Assembly: GCA_028277205.1 (NCBI GenBank)
Contig: JANQGT010000043.1
Span: forward strand, 1 to 42,420
Direction of reading: 5' to 3'
From: Candidatus Altimarinota bacterium
GTDB lineage: Bacteria > Patescibacteriota > Gracilibacteria > BD1-5 > UBA2023
DNA: 42,420 bases
The notes under the pieces are model-generated. The model was not told the DNA's origin. It ran no database searches and saw nothing but the letters and a program-made list of their open reading frames with translations. This document shows positions 26,682-40,828 of the stretch, piece after piece. A program made the position numbers and the translations under genes. Numbering within the stretch: position 1 is the first letter of the stretch; each line of letters opens with the position of its first letter.

Positions 26682-27407
26682 ATGGACGATCCGCGCCTTC
26701 ATTTTCCCGCTTTGCGTGCCCATCTCGGTGCGAGAGACGCTCCGAATGCGGATGACGTGCGACGACTGGATGCAGCCAGACGCCTCGCAAAAAAACTCCG
26801 GTATATCCCGGGAATCTCGATGATCGCCGTCGGCAACTCCGTGGCGATGTACGCGAGTCGAGAGGAGTCGGACATTGACCTTTTCATCGTGGCGAGACCG
26901 GGTCGACTGTGGCTCGTACGCGCGATCTTTACACTATTTGTCGCACTCCTCGGCGAGCGGAAAACCGCCCGGCATCACCGAGACCGGTTTTGTCTGTCGT
27001 TTTTCGCGGATGAGGAGGGGCTGGATTTTTCGGCATTTCTGCTCGAGGATGATATCTATCTCGCCTACTGGATCGCGACGCTGAAAATCGTCTACGACGC
27101 TGACACTGTCTACGAAAAATTTTTACAGATAAACCGGGATATCATCACCGTAAAACCGGAAGAGCGGGATGAAAACACACGCTGGAAACTCCGTGCGACC
27201 GGTACAAACCGGGAATACCTCCGATGGCTCTGGGATATGCTGGAGGGTATCGCGAAATTTTTTTTGCTCCCAAGGGCGCTGCGTACTCATGAGCGCCTGG
27301 GAAAACCGGCATGAGTCCGGATTACCGATCATCTGCTGAAATTTCATGACCGGGATCGCCGCGCAGAAATCCGGGATGCGATATTCAAAAACCGGGATGC
27401 GGATTAG
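26682..27407 (+). CDS. Nucleotidyltransferase-fold protein
   Basis: A 241-residue protein with a polymerase-beta-type nucleotidyltransferase core: ISMIAVGNSVAMYASREESD (about 45-64) followed by IDLFIV, where D64 and D66 form the metal-binding D-x-D. The region RDRFCLSFFADEEGLDFSAF and a C-terminal helical part follow. UGA-Gly at 27312-27314 extends the protein by 31 residues to TAG at 27405-27407, which shares four bases with the TAA of the convergent giant gene. The substrate (antibiotic, tRNA, protein or other) cannot be told. Confidence 0.8.
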
Positions 27408-30400
27408 GCGGGAGACATGACTGCTCCGCTTTCATCCAGCTGCAGACCGACCTCGCCGGCGTATATCCGCCGAAGCTCGATGAGATAGGCGCGAGCGTCG
27501 TCCGGATCGAGATCGAGTGCTGTAGTAGTTTGCTCGATCGTATGGGCATCGAGTGCAAATGATCCATCAAGCCACTGTGTAAAGTGCTCGCGTGCTTGAT
27601 CAGAATGCTTGATATCCACCGTCGCACCAATTTCTGCGAATACCGTACGAATCGCTTCCTGATCTCGTAGAAATACCGGTTTGTGAAAAACGATCTCGAC
27701 ATGATCACCCGTACCGCGCCGTACCTCATAATCAGCATCGGATATGGCGATATCATGATCCGACGGTGCGGAAATACCGATATCGAGAATCGAGAGATCG
27801 AATATTCGCGGAAGCAAGTCAAACATGCTATCGCGCGCACCATCACGCTCATCCTCGGGCACGAGCGTATAGTAGACGAGCTCTCTGTAAAATCCTTTTC
27901 GCACCTCGACATCGAGCATCGCAATACTCTCACCCAAAGCACGATAATTGATATTATCATATTGATCGATGATTTTCTGCTTCTTCGCGTACGCGAGTAG
28001 TTTCTGGTAGCGACTCTCTTCGGAAATATCACCACGAAGAATTTCCTCGATTCCTTTATATGTGGCGATCCCGATACCGAGCGCGACGAGAGCTACGCCC
28101 AGCTTTCCCGACATTGGCATTTTCCCAAAAGCAGAGCTCCCTGTCCGTACCGCCTCACGCAGTCGTCGGAGGATATCCGGATTTCTCGCGAATTCACGCA
28201 GTGCACTCGCGCCGGATGCGCCCAGGTGCAGCATTTCCTTTGGATGACGTGCCAGGTGCGCGGCTGATCCCGCGAGCCGCGTCAGTCATCTCGCGCCCTC
28301 CGCCATATCCACGAATGGACGCACCGCCGGAGAGAGCGCGGATCATACGCGCGCTCAGAGCGACAATCACGGCTGCGTCATAGCGCCGACGATCGTGGTA
28401 CCGACGCCCCCCAGCTGCCACACGGTCAGTCCGCTCAGCGTCAGGAGTGTGCTCATACCGTTGAATTCGAGTGCATTGTCCTCGCTCAGAGAGACGCCGA
28501 TATCATCCGCCTGCGTGATGAGCACCGATACCGGTCCGACGACGGGGATCGTGAGTGCGAGATTTCTGAGGAGATTATCGAGGAAATCCCCCGCCCCCTC
28601 GGACTCCGCCACCGTGATTCCCGTGATCGCGATCACGGGCAAACTGGAGATCAGGCTCCGAGCGATACTTGGCGACTCTTTCGCGAGTGTGGCGAGATTT
28701 CTTCCGAAGTCCGGAGCGGTTTCCCTCGTAAGTGCAAACGCCGTCTGTCGCGCCGCACCGGGAAGCGCCGAAAGTCTTCCGGAGCCGATGAGCTCCTGAT
28801 ACACGCGACTCATGCGTGGCGATCCGATGGCAAATCGCTCGCTGAGCATACGATGAGCACCCTCCAGCTGCCTCGCAAAATCATCCGCGTGCGCCGCCGC
28901 TCCACCGTGCATACCCACGACGGCGCGCCGCATCCGTGAAAATACCGACGCCTGCGATCGAGTGCTCACTACGCCAGTGTGACCTCAGGATTCACGAAGT
29001 CTTTGACCGACATCGGCTACCGTGACGCCTGTCGATCTCCCGGCGAGATCATCCAAATTTGCAATAGCGTCATCCAAAAATTGAGACGATGCTCCGGGGG
29101 GAAGCGCTCATTTCATATCTCTCAGACGCTCCTGAAACGAGCGAACCTGCGCACCGGTAATAGTACTCCCCTGTGGTAAAATGTCTCTTTGATACGCGTC
29201 GAGTACGAGGGCTTTCGCCTGCGCCTCGGTGACGGCGGTGCGCAGACCTCGGGCGTAGTCGGCGACGGCGGGATCCACGCTCTCAAACATCGCTCCCATC
29301 CTCGCAAACTGCTCGGCAACGACATCCATCCGGGCGAGATTTCGCATCTGCAGAGCGCTCGGCAGTCCCGCGGCGGCACCCACCGGCGCGACCGCGACCG
29401 CGAGAATTTTTTCCGAAAGCCATCCGGTCATCCGAGAGATGATGGAGAGCTTTCTGTAAAACATGACCAGGAGGAGCTTTTTATGATCATCGGGCAGCGC
29501 CTCGAGCGTTTTCAAAAAGTCTGCAGATGAAAGCGTACCAAGTGAAAATCCGACCGCCTCCGTCGCGGCACCGATCCCGATGGAAAATGTCTCGATGACT
29601 CCCTCTCCGACGCGCTCCGCAGCGACCTGTATGTGCTCGGTCCCGATGATCCCCGCATCGACGAGATCACCGAGTAGACGCACCATATCCGCCCCCGGGG
29701 AAAACGCCATCGCAAGTGTCGCTCCCCGCTCGTCAGCGACCTGCTGACCAGTCTCAAAAAGTGATTCTTGGTATGTCTGTATGATCTCCGGGAGCTTTTC
29801 CCGCTGTGTATCGTCCAGGTGGATCCCGAGTTTTTCGGTGATATACGTCTCCAGAGCGGCAGTGTATTTTGCCAGCATCTCAGGAGATTTCTTTTGCGTC
29901 TCATCCGATTCACCATCATCTCATGGCTCTCGCTCCGACTCTCACTCCGATTCCTTGGACTGTTCGACTGCCGGTTTATCGTCTTCAGGGCTTTTTCCAG
30001 ATAGACCTCAAAGTCCCAAAGCGGATCCGATTTTTGAAAATATCTCTCCAAAAAATACTTTGAATATTTTTCCGATTCCCTCAAACATGGCAATAAATTT
30101 CTTGAATCCCTCAAAGAGATCGAGCTGCGGGATGACATCGGAAACCCTCTCGAGGGCGGACCCCGCCGTATCAGATACTCGCGAGACGATACCGGTATCT
30201 CATCCGTCGTCCGGATTTTCAGACCGGTGGTCTCATCATTCGCTTGTTTCTGGGGGAGTTTCGGGGGATTCGGGGGAGCGACCACGTTCGACATTTGTAC
30301 GAAGTTGCTCGACTCTCAATGCCGTACGGGTTCGCGATGTAAGAATCTCTGTCAGGATTTCTCCGACATCCGCATTGCCTCTACCTTCGATTGCCTCACG

Positions 30401-30505
30401 AAGCTCTTTGATCTCTGACGATGTCAGTGTCTGAAATTGAGCACGAAGATCCTCCGGAATGCCGAGTGTTTCGGCGAGAGTTTCGCGGGATGGTTTTGGG
30501 GTCAT
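27404..30505 (-). CDS. Giant membrane protein, downstream member of a tandem pair
   Basis: One unbroken 1,033-residue frame with 12 UGA-Gly codons; the standard code sees pieces at 27404-28234, 28367-28969, 29108-29878 and 30236-30505. Order: a charged N-terminus (RETLAETLGIPEDLRAQFQT), an acidic Pro/Gly/Glu linker at about 77-106, an amphipathic segment (FKKFIAMFEGIGKIFKVFFG), a second acidic linker, then mostly alpha-helical sequence. Hydrophobic segments lie near 362-380, 646-665, 684-709 and 799-815, with a hydrophilic C-terminal domain of about 200 residues. No family recognised. It starts 24 bases after the upstream giant gene, in the same frame and operon. Membrane association is likely; function unknown. 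Confidence 0.75.
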
Positions 30506-30529
30506 TGGAGAGTATGATTAGATTCGAGA

Positions 30530-33500
30530 TTACAGCACATCTTCGGATTTCATGCCTCATATTTCGAGGACAAACTCTTGTCCGCTCCATACGAGATTAT
30601 CGACGATCCATTGCGCGGTATCTCACCAGTTTGGCTCATCATCTCACAGCTCCTGCCAGTAGTTTACAATTTCCGGCAGATGCTTTACAAGAAGCGCCGT
30701 ACCGACACCGAGAAATACCGTGGACGCATAGTTTTCTAAAAATCGGTATTCCGGACTCGTGTCGTCGGATGCTGGCTCGAGCCACTGTTCGACTCCGGTT
30801 ACCACACCTGCGACCGCTCCGGCACCAAGCGTACCCGTCCATCCGTATGCCCCGGTAAGGAAAGTGCGCTGCAGTGCCGCAAGCTTTCCGAGTCCCTCTT
30901 TATTGATGAGTGCGTTCGCAAGACCGCGATAGTACCCGATAGGCGTATTTTGCGAGATCCATCCCGGATTTTTATCGAGCCATGCGAGGATTGACTGTCG
31001 AGATGTTGTTCCAGTATGAGCGACGCTTCATGCTGCCCGTCGGGATCAGCGTATTGCGCTTTTCATGGAGTTCCAAAAGCCTCACGCACTCGCTCCCGCT
31101 GCCGCACCAGGAGCTGCCGCTGGAGCGCTCGCCACCCGCTGTGCTCACCGCTGGAATGCTGTACGCATCACCGCCGCATCATGCTCTGGCGCGTACGCGG
31201 CGAGATCGTCGCCGAGCTGAGCGAGTGTTCTATTTTGCACTCCGTTTACGATATTTCCATTTTCATCGACGAGATTGAAATTATTGCCATTTTTTTGCAC
31301 TTTCATATTCGTCCCGAGGATTTCAAATTCGTCTTGACTCGGATCATTTGCAAATCTTGCGAGCTGTCGACGCATCGTACGCGACCCGAGTCCGTACATA
31401 CCGGAGAGCTCGCGCGCTGCGGTATTCATATTTGCGACGAGTCGCTCCGCATCGGCTCTACTGGCGACGGTGATCCATGTGTCGTCGGCACTATCTCCGC
31501 GAAAACGGACTTGATAGTTATCATCCGCGACTTTTTTGATTTGTACTCGTTCGTGTGTTCGAGTTCTCCCTACATTTCCCGTGCCTTCGATTTTATTATC
31601 AAAATACGTCGTAACACGTTGTCGCAAAGCCGCTCTTGAGATGCTGGAAAGCGCTCGCTGATTCATGAGAGGCTTGACTGTCGAGAAGAGATCCGCCTGA
31701 GCAATGTCGTCACCAATATTCTCAATTCTTCCAGCTCGAGTCCAATGCCTTATCTTGTATATTCCGGGTTGGCTTTCCGGAGAGGTACGAGTAATGCGAA
31801 TTTTTCCTCCCTCCCTGTGCTGAAAATCTCGACTACCACTCTGTCGAACTCTCTCAAAGCCTCGAGAAAAAACCGCACTTTCCTCTGCGAATGTCGGCGT
31901 GCCCGGTTTTCTTCCGAAGGATGCTCGTACTCTTCAGCCTACACGACCGATGATGATGTCTCGATCTCTGGGGGCTCCTGTTTCTCGAGAGGCGCCCCTG
32001 CCACCGGCAGCACTCCAGCGCGATGCTGCTGCGAGTACGAATGCCATCGCGACCCCCGAGGCGATATTGAGAGCGAGCTCGTCCATCGGCATATCCGTAA
32101 AATCACCATACTTGATATGCGCATTGACCGCTGTCATCGTCACACCTCCACCGACTGCGATAGTCAGTGCTTCGGTGCTGCCGGCGAGTAATTTATTTCC
32201 GGTACGATGTGCGACAGCACGTCCTACTGCCTGCGATATGACAGGGAGCGCCGAGGCGAGGAGTCCCGATGCGACCAGCATCTCCCACTCCTGCGACTCC
32301 ATAAACCGATCCCAAGAAATCTCGGCGTCCTCATAGAGCATGCTCTCTGCGATCATCTGACCCGCGAGCATTCCCTCATAGCCTCCGATACCGCTCGCAG
32401 CACCGGCACCCAGCGTGCGTGCATAGCGTCCATAGCGAGCGATTCGACTTCCTGTGCTCACGAGTCCGATCGTTCGCCCTATTCCCATACCTACACGAGT
32501 AGCGAGTATTCATACACCCACTCCGCCTACCAATCCGAGCGGCAGCGTCAATGCAAACATGACCGCCTGCTCTTTGAGAAGATTTGCGTTTTCATCGGAA
32601 AAGTCCCAAAATCCGTATCCCTCCATGCCCGCATACAGTTGCAGTTCTTTTTCGTATTTTCCGCTGTATGTTTCCCCTTCTTTTCCGAGCGTATTTTCAT
32701 ACAGATCCGCAAACGCGTATTCGAATATCGAGCCTGTGATGACCTGTCGGATATGGACGTACCGCGCCTGTCGACGTCTGATGTCTTTGTATGCATCTTC
32801 GTTGAGCTTTGCTAATTCGTTCGCTTCACGTTCTTTATTATCCGCTTCCATTTGCTTTTTCCATTCTGCGGCATTTTCTTGCCACTTTTGGTCGAATGTT
32901 TCATCGAGTCCTGCTTCCGCCTGACGGAGTTTTCCGATGAAAGCATAGTACATATCATGCTCTTGCAAAAATTCCTTGAGTTTGGCGAGGGGCGTTCAGG
33001 CGCCTGCACTCTCGATTTTTGCTTTGAAATCATCGACACTTCACGCCTGAAGATACTGGATACCTATCTGCTCCATCATATTTCGTGTCATGCCAGTTAC
33101 TTCTTCGTATGTCAGGGAGCGCAGGTGCTCGCGCAGGTGATCCGGTGAAATTCAGCGAATGAGATCGTAGACAGCAAAACGCTCATCGACACCGGACTGA
33201 TCTCGTAGGATTTTTTCCAGGCTCTCCGGATCCCAAATCGTCGTCGTATTGTCGTCGTATATCGTATCGACTTCTTTTGCGAGTTTCAGGATTTTATCTC
33301 GGAGTTTTTGCTCGGCATCTCCAGCAGTTGAATCGTATCCCTGCAGGAGCGTGATAAATTTTTCGTGGATATCCGCATATGTATCGCTACGAGACAGAAA
33401 CGCCCCGAGCGCCAGCTCGAAAAGCTCGATTTCCTGGCGCAGATCCCCGATGACCTCGATGAATGTCGACGACAGCGAATCCATATCGACGATACGCTCC

Positions 33501-35545
33501 TCGCCGTCCTCTCCGACGATGCGATATACGCCATCCCGTACGTAGATATACGGACCCTCGTGAGGCGCCATGCGTTTACGCTCACGCTCTGTCCGCGCAG
33601 CATCATCGTATCATGCGACGGAGGGTGCTACGCCGGCTACGACTGTTCATCCGCTCGGACGGGGAAATTGTGTTTCTATCGTTATCGATTTTCCGATTAC
33701 TCCCTCTGCTACCGCCTTGAATGCTTTGAGTGTCTGTGGTCAGAGCTGCCCGTCTATGGTCAAATCTGAAGCAAACTTTGTGAGCTTGAGAATATTTTGA
33801 AAATCTTTTACTGATGCCTCTGAATAGTTCTCATCTTTTACTTTTTGAAATGCACTGACGACGGCACCCACGTTCACTGCTCGTCAGTCCTTGGCGATAC
33901 TTTTATCCTGATTGCTATAGCGTTGGAGCGCTGCAAAATAGGCTTCAAACCACTGAGCGTTTTCATCATAAAACTCTCTTGATTTCTCGGACATAGTCTT
34001 CTCTGCTTCTGCTCCTTCTCTTTCTCCGTCTTTTTCATCATCATCTTCTTCTTCTCCATCCCCTCCTCCATCCCCATCCGCTTCTCACTCAGACTCTGCA
34101 TCTTTACCTTCCTCGTCAAAAAATTTCTCGAGCTTCTCTGCGATAGTCTCCATTTTTTCTAGGAGCTGATCGAGGATTTTCGTGAGCGCTTGCTTGAATT
34201 TTTCCTTATCATACTCTTCACCGTCAAATTCTGTATACAGTTTCGTTACTTCGGCTTCATCGATAAATCTTTCATCGATCTGCCCCGACTGATTTACGAG
34301 GCGTACCAGCTCCATGAGCGTCTCGATATTTCGAAAGTGATCGGGATAGGAGACCCTATTTTCAAACACTCCGGCGAAGCGACTCCATGTCCTCTCATCG
34401 AGTCTTGTCTCCGCTGGTACACTTGGGGTGCTCGCTCGCTTCATCTGAGCACAGGCAATATCAAATCGGTATCCGCTGTCTCCCTCCTCGAAGAAATCCC
34501 ACATGATCTCGCGCGTGGCTCGCTCTGCATCTGTCAGCTGCGAGCGATTTAGCTCGGCAAAGAGTCGCTGTCGCTCCTGCGTACTGCGATCTTTCGTGAG
34601 AAAATTTTTATCCTTTCACACTTCTTCCTCGATTTTTTCGAGGATGATATCGATGCGCAGATTGTCCTCGCGTCAGTCTCACGGCTCGCCGCGTACGACG
34701 TATTTTTCGGTAAAGTCGCCAACGAGATCGATACACTCGATGATCTCCGCCTGACTCCACTCGCTTTGCTTTTCTATCACAAATTCCTTTATCGCCGTCC
34801 GGATCTCCCGCTGTGCTGCCGCCCTATCTGCCTCGTGCCAACTATGGACAATGGGGTCGATAGTGTCGATTTGTCTCTCTATAGCACTCCTGATCGTCTC
34901 GGTGTCTCATTCACGCATCTCGGACGACTCTGCAGGTGCTCCACTGGTTTTCGCATTCAGTCGGATCTCATCGTAGATCATGGCGATATCGCTCGCGTCA
35001 ATATCCCGAGGATCGCCATTGGAGAGGAGATCAAGCTCTCCGCTCGGAGAGCATATCGCATCCGATCACCATCCACGCCGATAGACGTACACATCGACAT
35101 CATGCTCTTTTGCGAATTCCTGGGCTGCTTTATTGCGTGCATCATTGCCTCCGCCGAGGACCATATAGTGCGGCTCTGCAGTGTCTTTCAGTATCACCTC
35201 GTAGACTTTCGGCGTGTCCGCATCATGAAATCGCTCGAAACGTTTTTCGGTTTCTTCATGGAGTTTTTCGCGTGTACCCGCACGCACCGTCTCGGCGATG
35301 ACGGCAAATCGCTCATCGAGATTTTCGATCTCGACATCGATGCGCGCCAGATACTCTTCTACTTTTCGTACGAGTGTTTGCTGCTGAGTCTCATCGAGAT
35401 TCGGCAGCTCTTCACGCAAAAATTTCTTTGCCTCTGTGCGAATTTTTGTTTCTTTTTCGCTTTCCGGCACTTTTCATTCGATAGCAACATCGACAATGTC
35501 GATGCGCCTCTCAAAGTCTCGGACCTTGATTTCCTTCTCTGCCAT
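30530..35545 (-). CDS. Giant membrane protein with peptidoglycan-binding-like segment
   Basis: A 1,671-residue frame from ATG at 35545 to TAA at 30530-30532, rejoined over about 23 UGA-Gly codons; standard-code pieces are at most 184 residues. The first 480 residues are hydrophilic and helical. An extremely acidic Gly/Asp/Glu linker lies at about 486-515. Near 560-615 a segment ending ASDLTIDGQL-G-PQTLKAF recalls the end of peptidoglycan-binding domain 1 (PF01471-like, inferred). Coiled-coil-like sequence follows, then hydrophobic helices at about 996-1022, 1083-1110, 1126-1146, 1156-1174, 1562-1582 and 1604-1619. No signal peptide. It probably forms a large envelope-spanning assembly with its downstream neighbour; that is inference. 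Confidence 0.75.
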
Positions 35546-37463: not shown

Positions 37464-39221
37464 TTATTTTCAGCGCTCGTTTGCGATGATTTTCAGGAGG
37501 ACGTCGCGCGTCGCCAGTACGTCCCCGAGCGCCGTATGCGCCGGATGATCGTCGCCGACGGCGAGCGTATCCTTCAGACCGCCGGGCGCAGAGAGGCTGG
37601 TGATAGGATACGGCATCGGCTCTCCCACCAGGCTCGCGCGCAGATTCGCATAGTTTACGAGGGACTTCGTATCGATAAAATTATTTCAAAGAAGATTTCC
37701 ATCATAGAAAATCTCGGGCTCCACCCGAGAAAATACACCGCAAAGAAATGCATAGTCAAACGGAAAAAATTGTCCGATCACGACAGGTTTTTGCCTAAAA
37801 TGTCGCAGAAAGAAATCGCAAAACGCCCGGGTAAACTCCGCATAGGATACCCCCTGGCACATACGATCGCGAGTAAAGCCGTTTATCTGGAGGGATTCCT
37901 CATTGATATCGGCGTCATCGGGCGGACACACGTCCATCTGAAATGTATCGAGAATATCGAGCCGATCGTCCAGTACGGCGCACGCGCACTCTACGAGTCC
38001 ATTTCGATACGGATCAAATCCCGTCGTCTCCGTATCGATGATGAGATAGACGCCGCGTTTTTCATCGTGTGAGTCATATCATCAGTCCTGCGAGACCGGT
38101 CAGTGTGCAGACGACGAATGTATCAGTGCAAACATTCGTTGCTTTAGCGTATCGATGCCCGCCCCCGTCTCGGCGCTGATCGGGATGGGATCGAGGTGAG
38201 CATAGAGCTTGAGGAGGTGTTTTTGGATATCCGCATGGATCGTATCCCATTTATTGAATACTATCAGGCGCGACTGCGAGGCTCCGAGGGATGCGAGCGT
38301 TTCGTTCACGACGTGCAGATGCTCGTCGAGCTGTGGACTGCCGGCATCCACGACATGCAGGAGGACATCACTCTCGACGCTATCCTCGAGCGTCGCGGTA
38401 AATGCGCTCACGAGATCATTTGGCAGATCCCGGATGAATCCGATGGTGTCCGAGACGAGCACTTCCAGACCCTTTCGGGTATCAGCATTTCACGCGAGAT
38501 ATGCCGTCCCCGTGCTCGTCTCCAGCGTCGCGAAGAGCTTGTTTTCCGAAAGTACGCCTTTTCCGGTCAGTGTATTCATGAGTGTGGATTTGCCGGCACT
38601 GGTATATCCCACGATTCCGAATGTCGGATACCCCTTTCGTTTGCGATTTTGTCGGTGCAGCGAGCGAGTTCGTTCGTATTTTTTCAGGCGTTTTCGTACG
38701 TCTTCTTCGCGCTCCCGGAGATGTCGGCGCATGATCTCGGTATTCGTCTCTCCCTTTCCGCGTGCGAGTTTCGAGCCGCCACCCTGACGCGAGAGCTCGA
38801 TCCCCATGCCGAAAATCCTCGGACCCATATGGCGGATACTCGCAAGCTCTATTTGTAGTTTTGCCTCGGGCGTCTTTGCGTGCGCTGTAAAGATCTTTAG
38901 GATGAGATCGACGCGATCCCATATCTCTATGGACAGTTTTCGCTTTTCGATGATCTCACCGATATAAAACGTCTGTGCGGGCTTGAGGACATTTCCCAAA
39001 ATAATAACGTCCGCGCGGTGCGTCTCCGCCGAATCCAAAATTTCCTCGAGCTTTCCCGAGCCGACGTAGGTACGATAGTCGACCGTCGCGCGCCGCTGGA
39101 TATGCTCCACGACGACGATCCCGCCATAGGTCGAGACGAGACTCTGCAGCTCCTGCGAGCGCTCGAAAAGCTCGGCGTCCGACGCGTCTTTCGGGGCGAC
39201 ATTGACGAGGATGGCACGCAT
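37464..39221 (-). CDS. hflX: HflX GTPase fused to a DEDDh 3'-5' exonuclease
   Basis: One frame of 585 residues. Residues 1-370 are HflX, a ribosome-splitting/rescue GTPase: N-terminal AILVNVAPKDASDAEL, RQGGGSKLARGKGE, G1 GYTSAGKST, DTIGFIRDLP, FNKWD. UGA-Gly at 38490 lies in the G domain. HflX sequence ends near IHSSSAH, then G-PVSQD-G-G-YDSHDEKR leads without a stop or any ATG, GTG or TTG into YLIIDTETTGFDPYRNG, a DnaQ-like exonuclease with the later catalytic HPAHTALGD. Further UGA-Gly codons at 37683 and 37470; the end is TAA at 37464-37466. Either a genuine fusion or two genes with an unconventional internal start. Confidence 0.8.
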
Positions 39222-39313
39222 AGACTGCTGATAAAAGGAGCGATTGTATCCGCAAGTCGCAAAAAAGTCAAAACTCTCCCCCGCATTCAGACGAGAAATC
39301 CGGAAAATGGACA

Positions 39314-40828
39314 CTACCCCAGCACGTATTTTCGCATGCGTCCGGATACGAGCGGCGAGAGCGCGAGGGCAAATAGTGCCAAAAGCATCACTCATCCGAC
39401 GACGAGCGAGAAAAACGGCGAGAGCGCGAGGGCATCCAGTACATGCCGGACGACAAATACACTCCCCACAGTCCACCCGAGAAACACGAGCATGCAGCCG
39501 TACGGGATGGAAATCCGTGCCGTACGGGAGACGAGCCAGAGTCCTCCGACAGCGAGCAGTACCTGCGAGACGACGGTCATTCCGGCGCTTCAGAGAAAGG
39601 AGAATACAGGAATCAAAAAGAAATTTCCCACGATATTGACGAGGGCGAGCAAAAAATTGAGCGCGAGCAGGCGAGACTGGACGCCGTGCGCCACGAGTCC
39701 AAATGTCGCAAGCTGACCCAAAAACGCGACGATAAATACCCCCCCCGCAATATGAAATGCGTCAAGCGATGTAAAGGTATACAGCGTGTCGTCGATATAG
39801 GCGGTATTTGACAGGACGATGAGGATCTCCCGACCAAATGCGAATACGCACGCCGACAAAAACAGTGCACCGAATACCAGTACGAGCGACGCCCGGCGAA
39901 ACGTCCGGGCAAATCCCGGCGCATCATCTCCCTCGACATGGCGGGTCAGCACCGGTAAAAGCGAATTGAGAAACAATGTGGAAACCATCATGCCCACCTC
40001 CACGATTTTCATCGGTACGCTATACAGCGCCACGCTCACATCCGCGATCGCGCGCGGCTCCAGGATGGAGAGCATGATGATATCCACCTTGAAATACACG
40101 ACTCCGAGAAAGAGTGCGAGTCCGTATGGTGCTGCGCGTCTGAGCAGATCCACGATATACCGACTATCGAGTCCGATACGGATGCGGTATCGCGGGAGCG
40201 TGTACAGTGCCGTGAGTGTCGTCATGATCACATTGCCGAGGAGTCCCGCCCCCATGATCGCGAGAAATACCCAAAGTCGCCACTCGGGATGCGCATCGAG
40301 CGTGGCTGCCGGTACGAGGACAAAGACGATGAGGAGGATCGAGAGAAGATTCGCGATCTTTCCGATGCTCGTGGATACGAGCGAAAACTCCGACCGCTGA
40401 TACGCCTGCAAGAGCGAGAGCAGCGAGCTGTTTATGATACCGAAAAACGTAAACACCCCGGCAAATGCCACCGCCGCAAGCGCGAGCGTCGAGTCATATC
40501 CCGGCAAAAATGCGGCGATCCCGAGCGCCAAAAACACCGCGACGATGCCAAATATCGCACGTATCGCAAAGATATTTCCAAAGATTTTCTCGGCTTTTTC
40601 CGGGTCGTCCCGGCATGCGGAGATCTCTCGGATCGCCATCGTATACAGTCCCGTATCCGCGATCACTGCAAATATGGAGAGGTAGTTGTACACCTTTCCG
40701 TACAGTCCGTACTCCTCGATGGTGAGGTAGTTTGTCAGGATTTTCAAAAGCAGGATGCTCGTCGCGACCGTGATGAGCTTGCCGGCGATTTGCGCCGAGG
40801 CATTTGAAAACACTCGGAAATCCGCCAT
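39314..40828 (-). CDS. Polysaccharide flippase (Wzx/MATE-like)
   Basis: A 504-residue multi-pass membrane protein of the MOP exporter superfamily, expected to move lipid-linked sugars across the membrane. It starts MADFRVFSNASAQIAGKLIT and has about 12-14 hydrophobic helices, the usual N-terminal repeat (TNYLTIEEYGLYGKVYNYLS) and the VYFKVDIIMLS segment. UGA-Gly at 39590 and 39392 add the last two to three helices. The stop is TAG at 39314. The start lies 1 base after the stop of the upstream anchored protein gene, so they share a transcript. It pairs naturally with surface glycan synthesis such as the glycosyltransferase at 5 kb. Confidence 0.87.

Follow-up and report, generated by a model that had tools for sequence, protein, structure and literature searches.

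A fast-diverging tandem of two giant genes in bacterial lineages that read UGA as glycine

Two giant genes lie in tandem on the minus strand of the 42,420-nucleotide stretch analysed here (the window), which is contig JANQGT010000043.1 (C18) of a 1.06-Mb genome in 52 contigs from Candidatus Altimarinota bacterium (GCA_028277205.1; Gracilibacteria, BD1-5). As found so far, the pair appears to be an ancient two-gene locus specific to lineages that decode UGA as glycine, namely the Absconditabacteria/SR1 and related Gracilibacteria, and the smaller protein belongs to a family that is conserved over its length. An earlier note, made from the sequence alone, had described two UGA-rich membrane proteins and had proposed them as candidates for an envelope-spanning or host-attachment structure. 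Its coordinates (Table 1) and strand were exact, as were the protein lengths of 1,671 and 1,033 residues, the common reading frame, the 24-base gap and the total of 35 in-frame UGA codons, 23 in the upstream gene and 12 in the downstream gene when read with NCBI table 25.

Both giants are genuine single, unsplit genes. With table 11 the longest open reading frame (ORF) on the pair's strand of this stretch is only 276 residues and the region breaks into many short ORFs, as it might if short genes had been wrongly joined across TGA stops; we give such an artefact practically no chance. A tRNA with a UCA anticodon is present at G000:C2, about 94985-95060 (ARAGORN; default label selenocysteine, SeC). 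Its acceptor stem (GCGGG...CCCGCT-CCA) and discriminator are those of tRNA-Gly(UCC) from the same genome and unlike those of tRNA-Trp, which supports the prediction that it carries glycine, matching the UGA=Gly code. In the alignment of the larger protein with its relatives (type A, below), glycine filled 62 of 199 positions at UGA columns (31%), compared to 30% at GGN columns and 6% at other columns, and this excess also argues against an artefact. The 1,033-residue protein taken alone showed a weak excess (10.7% vs 7.1%), and the variable N-terminal linker region holds half of its UGA codons. Tryptophan occupied none of the 424 aligned positions at UGA columns in the two families together. 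The G153 homologue of the smaller protein is 935 residues long with no TGA at all, a single frame without recoding; the 1,033-residue gene is therefore single and long, which already refutes the artefact for this gene. The earlier note had named homologues with a real gene boundary at a TGA site as one finding that would speak against its reading, and none of the 25 homologous frames inspected was split. That the two giants are one gene, split or broken by a sequencing error, was also rejected, as homologous loci keep the genes separate.

The description of the pair as UGA-rich stands in part. UGA accounts for 35 of its 244 glycine codons, compared to 13 of 348 in 12 neighbouring frames (Fisher p = 1.3e-5, run with 14 instead of 13 and so slightly conservative), but the richness is not conserved in relatives, which have 0 UGA codons in G153 and 7 and 1 in G163. 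For this reason it is given no functional weight, and is best taken as relaxed codon usage.

Because single-sequence searches of 145 genomes of the class returned only weak fragments, profiles were needed; a scan of named genomes with the 1,033-residue protein gave no match. One fragment, in G085, is the end of an 802-residue protein homologous to the 1,033-residue protein (3e-11, two-sequence comparison). Its gene closes a run of five genes on a 10-kb contig; three genes of this run are large, and one encodes a peptidoglycan-binding-like domain. At E ≤ 0.001, stepwise profiles (A2, A3 and A5) first matched 7 of the family's 27 genomes and later, among 353 genomes from the class, 37 and 46. 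Thirty-nine of the 46 genomes scored E < 1e-8, and all 39 belong to three GTDB families: f1, the window's own, with 13 of 27 genomes positive; f2, from the same order; and f13, from another order of the class. The f13 members include SR1 RAAC1_SR1_1 (Absconditabacteria, CP006913.1), so that f13 holds SR1/Absconditabacteria. Full-length relatives span 800-1,130 residues, most genomes carry a single copy, and in-frame TGA occurs in the copies of all 39 genomes except that of G153. The seven remaining A5 hits, outside the three families, are short and weak and were taken as chance; a 380-genome sample of the phylum gave only similar weak hits and no convincing relative, the weak hits of both searches having E-values of 4e-6 to 9e-4. 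Start positions are uncertain in these relatives, whose genes were called with a simple in-house script, alignments below 20% identity are rough, and the genomes are fragmented, which makes absence from any one of them weak evidence.

The tandem arrangement recurs with the family. The 1,033-residue homologue is preceded by a gene of the same strand in all 25 loci, and in 18 of the 25 this upstream gene encodes at least 565 residues, compared to 24 of 155 background genes (p = 2e-8). Of 17 pairs measured, 16 have an intergenic gap of 6-116 bases and one a gap of 555, a spacing from which the two genes would be co-transcribed. It is from the large upstream gene and the restriction to three families that the tandem appears to be ancient and lineage-restricted. 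The upstream position is occupied by two unrelated kinds of protein. Type A, which includes the 1,671-residue protein, is marked by a G.W..SD...D motif, after which comes a hydrophobic Gly/Ala-rich core, and type B was found in G085, G157, RAAC1_SR1_1 and others. Profile-profile comparison of the 1,033-residue family, type A and type B revealed no relation, and direct homology was rejected both for the two giants and for the two upstream types. In G151 a type-A-like giant lies downstream of the 1,033-residue homologue rather than upstream, and in G175 the two positions are separated by an NlpC/P60 gene.

The pair diverges much faster than the neighbouring housekeeping genes. G163 keeps the order of the window (topA, the 241-residue gene, the 1,033-residue homologue, a giant), and on another of its contigs obg is divergent from the N-terminal piece of a giant. 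Identity between the window and G163 was 71% for topA, 59% for obg and 53% for the 241-residue gene, compared to 23% for the 1,033-residue homologue and 24% over 247 residues for the upstream giant. The 241-residue gene adjoins the 1,033-residue family in G163, G158, G153 and G145. Neighbours differ by family, with topA and the 241-residue gene in f1, ftsX and queA in f2, and NlpC/P60 peptidases, scoring above the cut-off and directly adjoining the 1,033-residue family as separate genes, in three f13 loci (L075, L076 and L068). No NlpC/P60 gene lies in the window and none was found in the window's genome. In G144 a 1,193-residue neighbour of the pair (L077 4456-8037, plus strand) ends in a DUF7831 domain (3.1e-34).

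The statement that nothing is recognised in these proteins was borne out at accepted thresholds in Pfam, NCBIfam, PHROGs, PADLOC and the PDB. Below them, residues 560-620 of the larger protein resemble Pfam PG_binding_3 (E 0.013; 16.2 bits, under the cut-off of 24.6). The motif DG..G..T..A is present in four proteins of these loci (window, G145, G151 and G085; shuffle mean 0.075), and in the G085 cluster protein P0006 scores 21.4 bits for PG_binding_1, whose cut-off is 23. Against the PDB, a profile built from five peptidoglycan-binding-like segments gave E-values of 0.0096 (6v3z), 0.056 (1lbu), 0.47 (7aj9) and 0.99 (6v40); these values are weak, and the best matches are mostly peptidoglycan-binding proteins. 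The peptidoglycan-binding-like segment named in the earlier note therefore gained support from the recurrence of its motif in three other proteins and from these weak hits. Whole-chain PDB hits of A5 (apolipoprotein and hemagglutinin HA2, E about 0.01 and worse) were dismissed as coiled-helix noise.

The N-terminal domain of the larger protein heads several otherwise different proteins in five genomes, contig C21 of its own genome included. The C21 and G085 copies are rows of the A1 alignment; independent matches of the A1 profile were found in G156 (4e-16) and G163 (7e-12). By eye, two G163 proteins likewise carry the small second domain behind the N-terminal one. The C21 paralogue (L009 4830-7961, minus strand) is a different protein of about 945 residues (frame 1,043 residues), and next to it are a glycyl-tRNA synthetase-like gene upstream and then a 651-residue multi-helix membrane protein, for which a VirB6-like reading by eye had no Pfam support. 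The G156 protein with the shared domain (L030 7525-9300, minus strand) has 591 residues; by eye its C-terminal part looked RelA/SpoT-like, and the C-terminus of type B looked like a pretoxin (PT-TG-like), but Pfam supported neither. G163 carries a further giant frame of 2,048 residues with 23 UGA codons (L032 76-6222, minus strand).

Acidic linkers and hydrophobic segments, as the earlier note had reported, are present in both giants. The 1,033-residue protein has linkers at about residues 73-105 and 170-206, and hydrophobic segments are placed at residues 995, 1089 and 1157 of the larger protein and at 367, 614 and 645 of the smaller. The description as membrane proteins is plausible for the 1,671-residue protein, whose segment near 995-1013 (mean hydropathy 1.97 at 997-1015) is common to most type-A relatives, but is not supported for the 1,033-residue protein, in whose family 7 of 25 members have no membrane-like segment above threshold. 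The flanks of the type-A segment were acidic on the N side in 10 of 15 members and basic on the C side in 9 of 15, with a flank window that is probably wrong for two members, and this leaning was too weak to use for an N-out/C-in topology. No N-terminal hydrophobic segment or signal peptide was seen in the 39 aligned giants (0 of 25 and 0 of 14). Residues 390-510 are the best-predicted part of the AlphaFold model of the 1,033-residue protein.

Our preferred reading is that the pair forms a cell-wall-associated, probably host-contact apparatus, to which we assign a probability of roughly 0.4. Wall association is favoured because peptidoglycan-binding-like motifs recur and NlpC/P60 adjoins some SR1-family loci. 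The two proteins may act jointly at the cell wall: the upstream protein would grip peptidoglycan through its peptidoglycan-binding-like segment and be kept at a membrane, or close to one, by its hydrophobic core, with the long acidic linkers as spacers, and the downstream helical protein could be a partner or scaffold. The most likely purpose of such an assembly would be to contact a host cell's wall or to open it. The source bacterium is tiny and probably host-dependent, and Absconditabacteria have been described as predatory and epibiotic, with giant surface proteins (PMC8080830). Proteins that combine wall-acting domains with the absence of a signal peptide need another export route, which for the pair would be one without a Sec signal peptide. 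Type IV secretion system (T4SS)-type ATPase domains (TraG-D_C) occurred in each of the nine genomes tested; across the phylum such systems are widespread (PMC12102498), and in a BD1-5 genome 104 proteins were predicted as non-classically secreted (PMC6851277). The giants had no VirB6/TrbL match in Pfam, and TrbL was not found in their own genome. A fuller version, in which the pair is the core of a wall-breaching or docking apparatus of the predatory UGA=Gly lineages, exported without a Sec signal, built around peptidoglycan and unlike described attachment and secretion systems, seems doubtful to us.

Several observations weigh against the cell-wall and host-contact reading. No domain of the pair attains a curated threshold, the peptidoglycan-binding-like motif is missing from most upstream proteins, and NlpC/P60 adjacency is limited to 3 of 25 loci. 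Co-transcription is inferred from gene spacing only. The AlphaFold models, largely helical, have low confidence (predicted local distance difference test, pLDDT, 59.9 and 46.9), and Foldseek with the 1,033-residue model found nothing in the PDB or among viral structures (BFVD). No secretion genes were recognised beside the locus. As only 13 of the 27 genomes in its own family were positive, the pair may not be essential, or the search may have missed copies.

The main rival is an internal scaffold, with the pair acting in the cytoplasm or at the inner face of the cell's own membrane and never reaching the outside; there it could serve shape, division or the assembly of pili or a secretion machine. 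The absence of signal peptides would fit, as would a mostly helical 1,033-residue model, members of its family with no membrane-like segment, and its conservation as a single copy in most genomes. The peptidoglycan-binding-like motifs and adjacent NlpC/P60 genes point outside the cytoplasm, however, and the divergence is unusually fast for such a role, so that we consider an internal scaffold possible but rather unlikely. Host-delivered effectors come second. Large secreted proteins with shared N-terminal parts and variable remainders are what the N-terminal domain of the 1,671-residue protein, and of that protein only, brings to mind, and hydrophobic Gly/Ala-rich segments, missing signal peptides and T4SS-type ATPases would suit delivery into a host. 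Yet no toxin (C-terminal) or enzyme domain was found with Pfam, NCBIfam or PADLOC, and the 1,033-residue proteins form one conserved family rather than a set of exchangeable C-termini; delivery as effectors is unlikely.

Tape-measure proteins of phage tails are typically long and helical, with internal hydrophobic stretches and wall-acting domains. The pair is likewise long and helical with internal hydrophobic stretches, and a few tape-measure proteins were among the insignificant Foldseek hits. Nevertheless, there was no PHROG match and no Foldseek hit at E ≤ 0.001, TM-scores were about 0.1, no tail genes were recognised around the inspected loci in a scan that did not take in every neighbour, and the nameable neighbours are housekeeping genes (topA, obg, queA, ftsX). 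An origin in a degenerate phage tail or tail-like particle is already disfavoured and very improbable.

Among known systems, the closest in kind are the giant putative surface or membrane proteins of Vampirococcus lugosii (PMC8080830), which share with the pair a very large size (more than 1,000 residues), the same broad lineage and code, and a proposed role in the envelope or host attachment. Ten proteins of 1,392-4,163 residues in Vampirococcus (PMC8080830) also mean that, contrary to the earlier note, size alone is not striking in this lineage. By published description, those giants carry adhesion-type domains (WD40, TRP, PKD, DUF11, integrin, fibronectin), of which Pfam and NCBIfam found none in the pair; the pair, unlike them, is mainly helical and has no signal peptides. 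With PG_binding_1 and PG_binding_3 (PF01471/PF09374) of wall hydrolases the pair shares the DG..G..T..A motif and weak hits to Sen1395, 1LBU and YcbB, but it stays below the Pfam cut-offs and the likeness covers only a short part of one giant. No description of the pair was found among open-licence papers. What is probably new is that giant, probably wall-associated proteins without signal peptides form a conserved tandem; giant putative surface proteins as such were already known (PMC8080830).

Table 1. Features of the tandem locus, in window coordinates
Feature	Position	Strand	Basis or remark
Upstream giant gene, 1,671 residues, 23 UGA-Gly, type A	30530..35545	-	Profile relatives in G163, G161, G145, G154 and others
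N-terminal helical domain, residues 1-105 of the 1,671-residue protein	35231..35545	-	A1 profile
Small second domain, residues about 110-190 of the 1,671-residue protein	34976..35218	-	Sequence comparison by eye
Very acidic Gly/Glu/Asp linker, residues about 477-520 of the 1,671-residue protein	33986..34117	-	Direct reading
Peptidoglycan-binding-like segment, residues about 560-620 of the 1,671-residue protein, DGQLGPQTLKAF	33686..33868	-	Sub-cut-off Pfam match, motif recurrence, profile hits
Conserved type-A core, residues about 980-1190: G.W..SD...D, hydrophobic segment 995-1013, further weaker segments	31976..32608	-	
Downstream giant gene, 1,033 residues, 12 UGA-Gly, defining member of the conserved family	27404..30505	-	
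Low-confidence, probably disordered or linker part, residues 68-206 of the 1,033-residue protein	29888..30304	-	AlphaFold pLDDT below 50
Moderately hydrophobic helix pair, residues 614-663 of the 1,033-residue protein	28517..28666	-	Surrounds the best-conserved stretch (P612, G657)
C-terminal alpha/beta domain, residues 925-1018 of the 1,033-residue protein	27452..27733	-	AlphaFold model
Convergent neighbour, 241 residues, nucleotidyltransferase-like by motif only (GNS...DIDLF)	26682..27407	+	No Pfam match

Elsewhere in the window, at 37464-39851 on the minus strand, an HflX-type GTPase frame of 795 residues continues at residues 603-781 as an RNase_T/DnaQ-like exonuclease domain (Pfam 2.1e-8) and, read through UGA-Gly codons, may be a fusion of HflX with an exonuclease.

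Standard-code gene callers will break loci such as this one into fragments, and about half of the Vampirococcus proteome is without annotation (PMC8080830). The pair supplies profiles and a syntenic marker for these lineages. Little is understood of the way in which Absconditabacteria and Gracilibacteria attach to their hosts, open them and empty them, and the two genes make up a shortlist for localisation and interaction work on that question.

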